Assembly: GCA_027623325.1 (NCBI GenBank)
Contig: JAQBXY010000025.1
Coordinates: 1-51,555, forward strand
Direction: 5' to 3'
Source: Gemmatimonadota bacterium
GTDB taxonomy: Bacteria > Gemmatimonadota > Gemmatimonadetes > Longimicrobiales > Gaopeijiaceae
Length of the DNA stretch: 51,555 bases
Shown: piece after piece, positions 22,612 to 30,061 of the stretch
How positions within the stretch are numbered: position 1 is the first letter of the stretch
Layout of the letters: every line of letters starts with the position of its first letter
Notes under the pieces: generated by a model
Seen by the model: only the letters and a program-made list of their open reading frames with translations
What the model was told of the DNA's origin: nothing
Database searches by the model: none
Position numbers and translations under genes: made by a program

Positions 22612-23898
22612 ATGAGTCGCCCTTCCCAGCGCACGATTTCAAAGTCCGTAACCCTCGAGGGGACGGGAGTCCACTCCGGCGAGAGCGCGTCGCTCACCTT
22701 CCGGGCGGCTGAGCCCGGGAGCGGTGTACGTTTTCGCCGAGTGGATGTCGAGGGGAGTCCCGAGGTGCCTGCCGATCTCGACTTTGTGGTCGGGAGTGAT
22801 CACGGCACGACTCTGGGCCGAGACGGAACGACGATCATGACCGTCGAACACGTCCTGGGGGCTTTGGCGGCTCTCTCGATCGACAACGTCACGATGGAGC
22901 TGGCCGGACCCGAGGTCCCCATCCGTGATGGCTCGTTCCGAGACTTTCTGGCGGCGCTCGATGAAGCGGTGCCGTTGGATCAAGACGTCGAGGCGGCTGT
23001 CATCGAAGTCTCCGGCGTAGTGCAGGCGAGTGATGAGAGTGGCCGGTCCTCCTATGTCGCGACATCTGCCGAAGGGCTGAGAATCTCGTCGACGATCGAT
23101 TTCGACCATCCGGCGATCGGGCGTCGCTACGGTTCCTTTCTCATCGATGAATCGACCTTCCGGTCGGGGTTGGCCGACGCGCGCACCTTTGGATTCCGGG
23201 CCGATGCCGACTCGTTGCGTGAGCGGGGGCTGGCCCTCGGCGCGTCGATCGAGAACACGGTAGTCCTCGACGAGAGCACGGTGCTTAACGAAGAGCTTCG
23301 GTTCGACGATGAATTCTTGCGTCACAAGGTCGGCGATATCGTCGGCGACCTCGCGCTCCTGGGGGGGCGCTTGAGCGCCCACGTGATCGCAGAACGACCG
23401 AGTCATGCCGGGAACGTCGCCCTCGCTCGCGCCATTCGTCAGCACATCAGGCGCTCGGGACCGCCCTTCGCCGACATCAATCGGATCATGGAGTTTCTGC
23501 CGCACCGATACCCCATGTTGCTCGTAGACCGGATCATCGACTTCGAGGCAGGACGGAGCATCGTCGGCATCAAGAATGTCACGATCAACGAACCCTTCTT
23601 TCAGGGCCACTATCCGGGCCACCCGATCATGCCGGGCGTCCTGATTATCGAGGCGATGGCGCAGTGTGGCGGTCTCCTCCTCATGGACGAGGTGGACGAC
23701 ATGGGAGAGAAGGTCGTCTACTTCATGACGATGGATAACGTCAAGTTTCGGCGGCCCGTGACTCCAGGCGACACCCTGCTCTTCGAGCTGGAGGTCATTC
23801 AGTTCCGGCGGGGCGTCTGCCGAATGGCGGGCCGCGGCCTCGTGGATGGGAAGGTCGTCGCCGAGGCCGAGTTCATGGCCAAGATCATGGATAAGTGA
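22612..23898 (+). CDS. lpxC-fabZ: Bifunctional LpxC-FabZ fusion (deacetylase / hydroxyacyl-ACP dehydratase)
   Basis: A 428-aa fusion. Residues 1-about 282 are LpxC, the committed zinc deacetylase of lipid A synthesis: H80 (TVEHVLGAL), H238 and D242 (FLRHKVGDIVGD) bind zinc, and H265 (ERPSHAGN) is the catalytic histidine. Residues about 288-428 are FabZ, the hot-dog-fold 3-hydroxyacyl-ACP dehydratase: EFLPHRYPMLLVDRI, then catalytic H337 in GHYPGHP and E347 in GVLIIEAMAQ. Both active sites look intact. The two activities compete for and supply hydroxyacyl-ACP, so a fusion may balance lipid A against phospholipid. Such fusions are known in Bacteroidota and relatives. It is followed directly by lpxA. 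Confidence 0.95.
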   Translation: MSRPSQRTISKSVTLEGTGVHSGESASLTFRAAEPGSGVRFRRVDVEGSPEVPADLDFVVGSDHGTTLGRDGTTIMTVEHVLGALAALSIDNVTMELAGPEVPIRDGSFRDFLAALDEAVPLDQDVEAAVIEVSGVVQASDESGRSSYVATSAEGLRISSTIDFDHPAIGRRYGSFLIDESTFRSGLADARTFGFRADADSLRERGLALGASIENTVVLDESTVLNEELRFDDEFLRHKVGDIVGDLALLGGRLSAHVIAERPSHAGNVALARAIRQHIRRSGPPFADINRIMEFLPHRYPMLLVDRIIDFEAGRSIVGIKNVTINEPFFQGHYPGHPIMPGVLIIEAMAQCGGLLLMDEVDDMGEKVVYFMTMDNVKFRRPVTPGDTLLFELEVIQFRRGVCRMAGRGLVDGKVVAEAEFMAKIMDK

Positions 23899-23900
23899 TC

Positions 23901-24707
23901 ATGCAGGATGCGGCCGCGTTGAACGTGCGTCCCGAAGCCCAGGTCCACCCCACCGCGATCGTACATGAAGAGGCGCGCCTGGGCCCTGGAGTGATCGTGG
24001 GACCGTGGGCACTCGTAGGCCCTGGGGTGGTCATCGGGGCGGGGACCCATGTCGGGCCGCGCGTCCTGATCGAAAAGCACACGAGCGTCGGCGAGGATTG
24101 TTTTCTCGCGAACGGAGCGGTGCTGGGGACCGATCCTCAGGACCTGAAGTACATGGGCGAGCACTCGACCCTCGTGATCGGCGATCGGACGATTGTTCGG
24201 GAGTTCGCGACACTCAACCGCGGGACGTCGGCCCACGGCCGGACGATCGTGGGCAGCGACTGCCTACTCATGGCATACACCCATGTCGCGCACGACTGCG
24301 AGATCGGAAACCACGTCATTCTGGCCAACTCCGTTCATATGGCCGGGCATGTGAGCATCGAGGACTGGGCGATCGTCGGCGGAGTGACCCCTATTCATCA
24401 GTTCGTTCGGATCGGGGCTCACGCGTTCGTCGGGGGTGGGTCTCGTGTGCCTCAGGATGTGCCCCCGTATTGCCGCGCGGCGGGGAATCCGCCGAAGCTC
24501 TACGGACTGAATACCGTCGGCCTCGACCGACGGGGGTTGTCCGAAGATGTGAGGAAGGCGCTCAAGCGTACCTATCGCCTCCTCTTCCAGAGCGACCTCA
24601 GCTTGACGAAGGCGCTGGATCGTGTCGACGATGAAGTCATGGGCTTTCCCGAGGTGAGGCACCTCGTGGCGTTCATCCGCGCGAGTGAGCGAGGGATCAC
24701 CACATGA
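23901..24707 (+). CDS. lpxA: Acyl-ACP:UDP-GlcNAc O-acyltransferase LpxA
   Basis: A 268-aa first enzyme of lipid A synthesis. The beta-helix repeats start at VHPTAIVHEEARLGPGVIVGPWALVGPG. The catalytic histidine lies in AYTHVAHDCEIGNHV, with the conserved IVGGVTPIHQFVRIG and an acyl-ruler region before the C-terminal helical bundle (GLSEDVRKALKRTYRLLFQS). ATG 23901 starts 2 nt after the fusion gene's stop; GTG 23895 overlapping that stop is an alternative. It lies in the order lpxD, lpxC-fabZ, lpxA, small ORF, lpxB. Confidence 0.95.
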   Translation: MQDAAALNVRPEAQVHPTAIVHEEARLGPGVIVGPWALVGPGVVIGAGTHVGPRVLIEKHTSVGEDCFLANGAVLGTDPQDLKYMGEHSTLVIGDRTIVREFATLNRGTSAHGRTIVGSDCLLMAYTHVAHDCEIGNHVILANSVHMAGHVSIEDWAIVGGVTPIHQFVRIGAHAFVGGGSRVPQDVPPYCRAAGNPPKLYGLNTVGLDRRGLSEDVRKALKRTYRLLFQSDLSLTKALDRVDDEVMGFPEVRHLVAFIRASERGITT

Positions 24708-24725
24708 CCCGACGGAATTGATCGA

Positions 24726-24860
24726 ATGTCGTTGATACGGGCTAGAAGACGCCGGAAGAAGAATTGGATCGCAGCGCGAAAGGGGATGGCGAAGGGGCGC
24801 CTCATGGGACTTCTCGTCCTCACGTTGCTCGCGATCTGGTATTTGGGCTGGCGTTTCTGA
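24726..24860 (+). CDS. Small basic single-pass membrane protein between lpxA and lpxB (44 aa)
   Basis: A 44-residue open frame starting at ATG 24726, 18 nt after the lpxA stop and ending 4 nt before the lpxB ATG. It fills the only gap in this tightly packed lipid A run. The N-terminal 26 residues are very basic (an RARRRRKK cluster near the start, then further Lys/Arg). Residues about 27-42 are hydrophobic (MGLLVLTLLAIWYLGW), predicting one membrane helix with a cytoplasmic basic tail. A weak GGAA lies about 9 nt upstream. No known family is recognised. Tight spacing and composition support it, but a chance ORF cannot be excluded. Confidence 0.5.
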   Translation: MSLIRARRRRKKNWIAARKGMAKGRLMGLLVLTLLAIWYLGWRF

Positions 24861-24864
24861 CGCC

Positions 24865-25995
24865 ATGAGCGCCCCCAGGATCCTGCTCCTGGCAGGAGAA
24901 CCGTCGGGCGATCAGTACGGGGGCGCTCTCGCACAAGCGCTTCGGCGTCGATATCCGGACGCAGGCCTGGTTGGGACGGGTGGACCGGAGATGAGGTCGG
25001 CGGGGGTCGAGTTAATCGAGGACATCGACACCATGGCGGTCATGGGGTTCGTCGAGGTCGTCCCAAAGCTCTGGGGCAGCTGGCAACTCAAGCGTCGTAT
25101 CTGTGACCTGATGGACGAGCGTCGCCCCGACCTCGTGGTGCTGATCGACTATCCCGGCCTCAACATGCGGCTCGCTCGAGCCGCCAAGGAGCGGGGCCTC
25201 GCCGTCCTCTACTATGTGCCCCCCAAAGTGTGGGCATGGAGGACGTCTCGGGCGAAGGCTCTGGCGGAGATCACCGAGCGCGTGGCGGTCGTCCTTCCGT
25301 TCGAGGTGGACCTACTGCGGGGCTGGGGCGTGGAGGCCACCTACGTCGGGCACCCTCTCCTCGAACGCTCGGACGATGTGCCGGATCGGGAGTCGTTCTG
25401 CAAACAGTGGGGACTCGACCCCTCTCGGCGCCTTCTGGCGATCTTGCCCGGGTCACGCGCACAGGAAGTCCGACGCCACATCGAGCCCTTTGGTCGGATC
25501 GCAGATCTGGTGGCCCGTGCGCGCCGCGACGTCCTCCCCGTTTTCTCGCGCGCGGCCTCGATTCACGCCGCAGCCTTTCACCGCACGGGGTTTCCTTTCG
25601 TGGATGATGCGCGGGCTCTCTTGCGGCATGCAGACGCCGCGCTCATCAAGTCCGGTACCGCCACCCTCGAGGCTGCCATCGAGGGCACCCCGCATGTTGT
25701 CGCCTACATCACGAATCCCATAACCATGGCGATCGGGAAGCACTTGTTGGTGGCGGACCACATCGCGTTGCCCAACCTCGTCGCCGAATCTCGGCTCGTC
25801 CCGGAGCTTCTCCAGGAGCAGGTCCAGCCCCATACCGCCGGCCACCTTCTTCTGGATCTTCTCGACCACACGAGTGAAATACGGTCACAACAAGTGGTCG
25901 GCTTCGAGCGTGTGCGCGACCGGCTGGGGACGCCGGGTGCGGCCGGGCGCGTGGCGGCTATGGCGGAGGAACTCATCGAGCGTGGTCGGGCGTGA
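24865..25995 (+). CDS. lpxB: Lipid-A-disaccharide synthase LpxB
   Basis: A 376-aa GT19 glycosyltransferase joining UDP-diacyl-GlcN and lipid X into the disaccharide. The N-terminal LLLAGEPSGDQYGGALAQAL, GTGGPEMRSAG, LIDYPGLNMRLA and YYVPPKVWAWRTSRAK are standard LpxB signatures, as are GHPLLE, ILPGSRAQEVRRH and the donor-binding ALIKSGTATLEAAIEGTPHVVAY. The length is typical. It starts 4 nt after the small ORF and overlaps the next gene by 4 nt (GTGA). Confidence 0.95.
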   Translation: MSAPRILLLAGEPSGDQYGGALAQALRRRYPDAGLVGTGGPEMRSAGVELIEDIDTMAVMGFVEVVPKLWGSWQLKRRICDLMDERRPDLVVLIDYPGLNMRLARAAKERGLAVLYYVPPKVWAWRTSRAKALAEITERVAVVLPFEVDLLRGWGVEATYVGHPLLERSDDVPDRESFCKQWGLDPSRRLLAILPGSRAQEVRRHIEPFGRIADLVARARRDVLPVFSRAASIHAAAFHRTGFPFVDDARALLRHADAALIKSGTATLEAAIEGTPHVVAYITNPITMAIGKHLLVADHIALPNLVAESRLVPELLQEQVQPHTAGHLLLDLLDHTSEIRSQQVVGFERVRDRLGTPGAAGRVAAMAEELIERGRA

Positions 25996-26627
25996 GCGAT
26001 CTCCGCTTCGAGAGCGCGGGTGTCCTTGGCTCGGGTCTGGTGAGTGCCCTTTTTTTCACCACCACCGTTCGTCGTCACGGTCACGGGGAGTACGAACGAT
26101 TCCGAGAGGCGGGTGAGCCGGTCATGTTCGTCTTTTGGCATGGCCAACTGCTGTCGCTTGTGCACTACCACCGGCACGAAGGCATCGTGGTACTCGTCAG
26201 CGAGCATGCAGACGGCGAGTACGTCACGCGCGTAATCGAACGAAACGGCTTCGGTGCAGTGCGCGGCTCGAGTACACGAGGGGGCATGAAGGGGCTCAAG
26301 GGACTCGTTCGTGCCGCCCGGAAGGGGAGAGACCTCGCGGTGACGCCGGATGGCCCTACAGGCCCCGCTTGCGAATTCAAACCGGGTGCCCTGGTCGCGG
26401 CTCAGATCACGGGTGTTCCTGTGATCCCGATCGCGGTGCGGGCGTCGAAGGGTTGGCGTTTTCGCAGCTGGGACGGCTTTCTCGTACCGCGCCCCTTTTC
26501 GGCCATCACGATCGAATATCTGCCCGCCCGCTACATCCCGCGTGCGGCGAGTCGCGTCGAGTTGGCCACCATCGCTGAGGAGATCGGAAGCCAGCTCAAT
26601 CAACGAATCCAGGGCGATGCGGAGTGA
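25992..26627 (+). CDS. lpxJ: DUF374 lysophospholipid-acyltransferase-like protein, probable lipid A late acyltransferase (LpxJ-like)
   Basis: A 211-aa member of the DUF374 family: VFWHGQLLSL (about 40-49, the acyltransferase histidine region), VLVSEHADGEYVTRVIERNGFGAVRGSSTRGG, DLAVTPDGPTGPACEFKPGALVAAQITGVPVIPIAVRA and a C-terminal basic/aromatic region. LpxJ of epsilonproteobacteria, a non-canonical secondary acyltransferase of lipid A, belongs to this family. Its position between lpxB and lpxK, with 4-nt overlaps on both sides and no LpxL/LpxM-type gene in the window, makes a lipid A acyltransferase role likely. The acyl position is unknown. GTG start at 25992. Confidence 0.8.
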   Translation: MSDLRFESAGVLGSGLVSALFFTTTVRRHGHGEYERFREAGEPVMFVFWHGQLLSLVHYHRHEGIVVLVSEHADGEYVTRVIERNGFGAVRGSSTRGGMKGLKGLVRAARKGRDLAVTPDGPTGPACEFKPGALVAAQITGVPVIPIAVRASKGWRFRSWDGFLVPRPFSAITIEYLPARYIPRAASRVELATIAEEIGSQLNQRIQGDAE

Positions 26628-29776: not shown

Positions 29777-30061
29777 ATGTTCCTTCAGCTGATCCTCGTG
29801 CTGGTCGTACTGATCCCCCTCCTGGCGATCGTCCTCGATTCTCAGGTGGGCAGGGCGCTCGCGTCCCGGCTCGAGCGCCGCAGTCTGGATGGTTCGTCGG
29901 ACCTGACGGCAGAGCGCCTCGCGTACCTCGAGGGAGAGATGGAGCGATTGACCAGCGAGGTTCTTCGCCTCGACGAAGAGGGTCAGTTCGTTCACAAGCT
30001 TCTGACGGAGCGGCGCGACGCGGAGGGCGGCTCGCTCCCGCCGGGTGACGATTCAGCCTAG
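29777..30061 (+). CDS. Small membrane-anchored coiled-coil protein, function unknown
   Basis: A 94-aa protein with one N-terminal hydrophobic helix (about 3-20, LQLILVLVVLIPLLAIV). A charged segment and a predicted coiled coil follow (about 45-75, LTAERLAYLEGEMERLTSEVLRLDEEGQFVHKLLTER), then an acidic tail. The outline resembles PspB-like or other small envelope-stress proteins, but no family is recognised. It overlaps murJ by 17 nt, so the pair is probably co-translated. Confidence 0.7.
   Translation: MFLQLILVLVVLIPLLAIVLDSQVGRALASRLERRSLDGSSDLTAERLAYLEGEMERLTSEVLRLDEEGQFVHKLLTERRDAEGGSLPPGDDSA

Follow-up and report, generated by a model that had tools for sequence, protein, structure and literature searches.

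Small single-helix bacterial membrane peptides (<50 aa) can bind and modulate membrane proteins, according to the accessible part of PMC6813294. The 44-aa protein described here shares with MgtR-type regulators a length below 50 aa and one hydrophobic helix, but differs from MgtR in its long basic N-terminus, its place in an envelope gene cluster, and its conservation across two classes. Its score against the MgtR model (NF033229) is 12.5 bits (E = 0.11), well short of the 35-bit cut-off. LapB and YejM, regulators of the lipid A pathway, are comparable as factors that have a membrane anchor and a connection to lipid A synthesis, but are far larger. The small protein also occurs in genomes in which searches found neither LpxB nor full-length LpxC. 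The zinc ribbon of LapB (PF18073) has no match in the one genome searched, that of the window (0/1), and this is a weak test because the model matches only 10 of 14 controls. GnnA is comparable in position, as it occupies the lpxA-lpxB interval in most relatives, with its 3' end overlapping the start of the small ORF; unlike the small protein, it is an enzyme (GFO/IDH/MocA), and it is absent from the operon studied here.

The window is the whole stretch of DNA that was analyzed, 51,555 nt in length. The features discussed below are the following:

22612..23898, + strand: lpxC-fabZ fusion (NCBIfam)
23901..24707, + strand: lpxA (NCBIfam), directly 5' of the small ORF
24264..24866, - strand: 200-aa antisense ORF, discounted as a gene (no Pfam match; stops within the small ORF interval in 7 of the 15 relatives checked)
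24726..24860, + strand: small ORF, 44-aa membrane protein (ORF reading, homologues, purifying selection)
24726..24797, + strand: codons 1-24 of the small ORF, basic, predicted cytoplasmic (column conservation, charge counts, alignment; motif MSL...R..RK)
24798..24848, + strand: codons 25-41 of the small ORF, predicted membrane helix (conservation periodicity, AlphaFold2)
24865..25995, + strand: lpxB (Pfam and NCBIfam), directly 3' of the small ORF
25992..26627, + strand: DUF374 acyltransferase (Pfam PF04028), between lpxB and lpxK, which we take to be lpxJ

The small ORF has an ATG start, 44 codons, and a TGA stop, and encodes MSLIRARRRRKKNWIAARKGMAKGRLMGLLVLTLLAIWYLGWRF. Its coordinates agree with the sequence-only reading, in which it fills the gap between lpxA, whose stop ends at 24707 (18 nt upstream), and lpxB, whose ATG lies at 24865 (4 nt downstream). 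That reading also took this gap to be the only one in the lpxD-to-rlmH run, which needs correcting: at 157 nt it is the longest, but a second gap of 80 nt separates the end of lpxD (22531) from the start of lpxC (22612). The strongly basic tail and single hydrophobic helix it described are both there, with 11 K/R and no D/E in the first 25 residues (counted by eye), followed by one hydrophobic segment. The lpxD, lpxC-fabZ fusion, lpxA, lpxB, and lpxK genes of the window all score above NCBIfam cut-offs, while the RlmH matches cover the whole protein yet score below the family cut-offs. A search of the window's own genome returned a single match to the small protein.

The window protein has no Pfam match, and in NCBIfam only the subthreshold MgtR match given above. 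Searches with 22 members of the family gave best E-values of 0.027 (Pfam) and 0.019 (NCBIfam), and no family was matched by more than 2 members, with cut-offs shown for the first member only. Among solved structures (PDB), the only matches were weak ones with long membrane proteins (E ≥ 0.13). In the accessible portions of the literature on Gemmatimonadota lipid A, LPS, and small proteins, on gnnA/gnnB, and on small lpx-linked membrane proteins, nothing was found on this protein. Most likely, it represents a single-span inner-membrane protein family that the searched libraries do not cover.

The small ORF is a real, conserved gene under purifying selection. The three forward frames were compared in 63 unique homologues of 44 codons: the two noncoding ones contain stops in 50 and 54 of them, whereas the coding frame contains none (0/63), partly by construction because the ORFs were collected as open frames. 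Comparisons of the window with three members of its genus give pN/pS values of 0.39, 0.25, and 0.29, and when the same changes are placed at random, a nonsynonymous count this low arises in no more than 1 of 2,000 trials. When unique sequences are grouped into 23 disjoint pairs, pN/pS comes to 0.32; the nonsynonymous changes number 244, vs. 378 ± 8 under random placement (minimum 351, 500 trials). A tally of close pairs (ratio 0.65) was set aside, since many of these pairs are distant and saturated.

In the window protein, residues 1-24 include 10 K/R but no D/E, and a single K/R falls within the last six residues. As the positive-inside rule holds that the basic flank of a membrane span is cytoplasmic, the N-terminus would lie on the cytoplasmic side. 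M1, S2, L3, R10, and W38 are invariant in 39 aligned sequences. AlphaFold2, run with 14 sequences, predicts one helix spanning residues 3-43 (mean pLDDT 84.4, pTM 0.37). A short ORF, one predicted helix, and one basic side give the protein the structural features of small single-span membrane proteins, with membrane insertion and topology as predictions.

Conservation within the predicted span is not randomly distributed. In 73 family sequences, conservation of residues 24-41 is periodic at 100 degrees (permutation P = 0.0035), this being one of three stretches tested, in sequences that are related. Residues 26-40 give P = 0.01, and the N-terminal stretch 3-20 gives P = 0.18. The conserved face, which was named after the data had been seen, consists of L26, L30, position 33 (mostly V, T in the window), I37, and L40, joined by W38-Y39. 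Positions 26, 30, 33, 37, and 40 follow a 4-3-4-3 spacing, as if the helix were packed on another helix, and the face could also mean self-association only.

Using the LpxB of the window as query, we found lpxB in 56 of 59 genomes, a set made up of 58 relatives and the genome of the window. DNA around lpxB was taken for 55 of these, leaving out G008 (lpxB at a contig edge), and two more (G010 and G025) were unreadable because their contigs end too near lpxB, so that 53 genomes are readable, the window's own included. A homologue of the small ORF lies directly 5' of lpxB in 51 of the 53; six of these homologues are low-scoring (16-30 bits) and were accepted because of their place and membrane segment. 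The remaining two genomes (G036 and G040) have readable DNA 5' of lpxB without a homologue. The window's genus carries the ORF in 9/9 readable genomes (window included), each time with 44 codons and with spacers of differing length. The ORF and its position are thus conserved in relatives, which the sequence-only reading had named as a check, and the frame-breaking indels, stops, or lack of purifying selection that would have refuted it do not appear: all nine genus copies keep their 44 codons, and synonymous changes are in excess.

A profile built from 39 sequences finds a match in 140 of the 246 class genomes and in 107 of the 249 phylum genomes (E ≤ 0.01), and a broader profile matches 157 of 394 phylum genomes (E ≤ 0.001); some weak matches within long frames are probably due to chance. 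Among the rows listed in the broader search, 92 genomes of the window's family are positive and 8 are negative. The lpxB neighborhood was read for three of the latter (G070, G125, and G229); it carries lpxA, gnnA, lpxB, lpxJ, and lpxK, and the small ORF is absent from it. Seven lettered families are positive (f1, f2, f3, f4, f5, f9, and f11), and the phylum they span is probably Gemmatimonadota. Of these, f11 belongs to another class of the same phylum, and its four matching genomes carry the small ORF adjoining lpxB. Families f6, f7, f8, and f10 give weak profile matches only (e.g. G068, G186, G231, and G307, E = 2.7e-4 to 8.9e-4). The G307 match, the sole one of these that was read, sits away from the lpx cluster and is spurious. 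In these four families, the small ORF is absent at lpxB in 17/17 genomes read, with lpxA, lpxB, and lpxK present; this sample is not random, as the genomes were chosen for absent or marginal profile matches.

The phylum name follows record titles: one scan with the small protein gave 21 loci, 17 of them titled Gemmatimonadetes, Gemmatimonadota, Gemmatimonadales, or BD2-11 clade, and four titled Gammaproteobacteria. In records with the latter title (L144, L145, L147, and L148), the small ORF does not differ from the one in genomes that belong to the window's family, and the titles look misassigned.

Gene order was read from loci fetched for 128 genomes, many of which were picked for a family match; 104 had a candidate, or 103 without the spurious one in G307. 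The order gnnA-small ORF-lpxB is found in 77 of the 103 genomes and lpxA-small ORF-lpxB in 16. Three have the small ORF between lpxA and lpxJ, five between fabZ and nadB, and one between fabZ and a contig end. In the last one (G077, L102; 55% complete), the order is cut by the contig end near which the small ORF sits, and no recognized lpx gene lies 5' of it. Overall, the small ORF lies inside the lpx cluster, between lipid A genes, in 96 of 103 genomes. Its neighbors nonetheless vary on the 5' side (gnnA, lpxA, and fabZ) and on the 3' side (lpxB, lpxJ, and nadB), so there is no fixed neighbor, and we rejected the deduction of a partner from a constant one. LpxB is weakened as a partner, since lpxB is elsewhere or not found in some genomes that carry the small ORF. 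For example, in f5 the small ORF stays between lpxA and lpxJ, and lpxB lies on another contig in both genomes where lpxB was found. LpxJ is likewise weakened, because lpxJ was not found between lpxB and lpxK in several genomes that carry the small ORF. It was not found there at L136-L138, L140, L145, and L147, so late lipid A acylation may differ between genera.

The gnnA label rests on GFO/IDH/MocA domains (PF01408), on a best NCBIfam match to UDP-GlcNAc 3-dehydrogenase that is below cut-off, and on the position between lpxA and lpxB that gnnA has in some other bacteria. Many relatives have the start of the small ORF inside the 3' part of gnnA (e.g. L011:1356-1378), which puts its first codons in two reading frames, and in many its end lies a few bases 5' of lpxB. 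It occurs both with and without gnnA, and gnnA status does not explain its absence either: of the 17 negative genomes, 13 have gnnA and 4 do not. Separately, the gnnA-like gene is missing between lpxA and the small ORF in the window (23901-24865) and in 15 other genomes, which may reflect a changed lipid A backbone sugar.

Genus g65 comprises six genomes (G166, G159, G081, G103, G138, and G083; L193-L195, L160, L161, and L164) that are 71-90% complete. These were noticed through their profile matches, so the presence of the small ORF in 6/6 is by selection. Genome-wide searches found LpxB (PF02684) in 0/6 of them, vs. 2/2 genomes of sister genera, and full-length LpxC (PF03331) in 0/6, vs. its presence in the three other genomes searched. 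In G083, a 64-residue end of lpxC is joined to FabZ, and in the other five only fabZ is left of lpxC-fabZ. At the locus itself, none of the lpxD, lpxA, gnnA, lpxB, lpxJ, and lpxK genes of the sister cluster (G073) was found in the fetched g65 stretches, although lpxA, lpxD, or lpxK may have moved to other places in these genomes. The order is bamA-skp-fabZ-small ORF in G166, G159, and G081, the readable part of G138 shows skp-fabZ-small ORF, and the G103 stretch begins at fabZ; in G083, neither bamA nor skp was found within 5 kb 5' of fabZ. Downstream, the five readable genomes have nadB (5/5), bshC (5/5), and rlmH (4/5, not found in G166), and MurJ further downstream was confirmed in one g65 genome. 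Omp85 proteins are found in 6/6, which makes retention of the outer membrane probable. g65 thus appears to have lost lipid A and kept the outer membrane. LptD (PF04453), tried as an indicator of LPS export, was uninformative, with matches in 0/9 genomes, the window's own included.

Within g65, two disjoint pairs of small ORFs differ by 21 synonymous vs. 3 nonsynonymous changes (pN/pS 0.05), with 0 of 2,000 random placements as low, and a wider pairing gives 0.16. The small ORF is therefore constrained where the lipid A pathway appears lost, and does not appear to occur only together with that pathway, as a lipid A component would.

The window also contains a 94-aa ORF (29777-30061, + strand) with an N-terminal hydrophobic segment, a charged tail, and no Pfam match, whose layout is similar to that of PspB. 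It is also found 3' of bshC in G166, G081, and G083 of g65 and in the sister genome G073.

The explanation we favor, at somewhat less than an even chance, is that the small protein serves an integral inner-membrane protein of envelope biogenesis, as its accessory subunit or its regulator, and does not need the lipid A pathway. In such an arrangement, the N-terminus would be cytoplasmic and the C-terminal span would sit in the inner membrane. The conserved face (L26-x3-L30-x2-V33-x3-I37-W-Y-L40) would dock into the partner or into a second copy of the small protein, and the basic N-terminus (MSLI..R..RK) may touch the cytoplasmic side of the partner or anionic lipid heads. The process served by the partner would be general cell-envelope biogenesis—i.e. 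of the outer membrane or phospholipids—with the small protein housed in the lipid A operon but independent of its pathway. Docking is proposed because of the conserved helix face, the gene cluster, and the way the small ORF stays with fabZ (and with bamA-skp in three genomes) after the loss of lipid A genes. Against the envelope reading stand the 96 copies between lipid A genes, which alone point to lipid A. The small protein is also missing from lineages with LPS genes, so it is not required for envelope building everywhere. It may still have a general role as a membrane-protein partner. A more specific proposal, which we regard as rather unlikely, is that the small protein is an undescribed inner-membrane component of outer-membrane biogenesis, encoded in the bamA-skp-fabZ-lpx cluster, and would be a single-helix partner of an envelope machine, retained under selection when lipid A was discarded and the outer membrane was kept.

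The same 96 genomes are what argues for a dedicated lipid A factor, which could tether or regulate LpxA, LpxB, LpxK, or the DUF374 acyltransferase and would have a second role in g65; that LpxA and LpxB act at or near the membrane surface also favors it. This is close to the regulator of a lipid A enzyme implied by the sequence-only reading, and it fits the wider distribution poorly. Specifically, searches of g65 found neither LpxB nor full-length LpxC, and no further lpx gene at the locus, yet the small ORF is present there and constrained; it is also kept where the operon lpxJ is not found, as well as in the two f5 genomes with lpxB on another contig. Conversely, lpxA, lpxB, and lpxK are present without it in all 17 genomes read from four families and in three genomes of the window's own family. 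On balance, we consider a dedicated lipid A factor improbable.

We are more doubtful that the small protein is a basic tether drawing some cytoplasmic body, such as a ribosome, nucleic acid, or a soluble enzyme (e.g. FabZ), to the inner membrane, with the operon place incidental. A very basic N-terminus attached to a single C-terminal span would suit such a tether, FabZ or LpxC-FabZ is encoded 5' in those window-class clusters that were read far enough, and FabZ is the neighbor retained in g65. However, fabZ was not found in the ~6 to 8 kb fetched 5' in three other-class genomes, and the conservation of the N-terminus shows no significant periodicity.

It is very unlikely that the small ORF is a leader whose main task is translational coupling between the preceding gene and lpxB: its start within gnnA and its end just before lpxB in many relatives would fit, but selection at the protein level, residues that never vary, an almost constant length, and occurrence beside nadB without lpxB argue against it. 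A chance ORF or an antisense gene, suggested by an antisense frame that is open in the window, can be dismissed given the synonymous excess, the stops in the other forward frames, and the antisense frame broken in relatives.

Place in the operon alone would have labeled the small protein, which we favor as an envelope partner, a lipid A protein. A lineage apparently without lipid A separates the two, and as such provides a natural experiment that sets lipid A genes apart from outer-membrane genes. It also follows that the main family libraries can lack a small envelope gene even when it is conserved in two classes.
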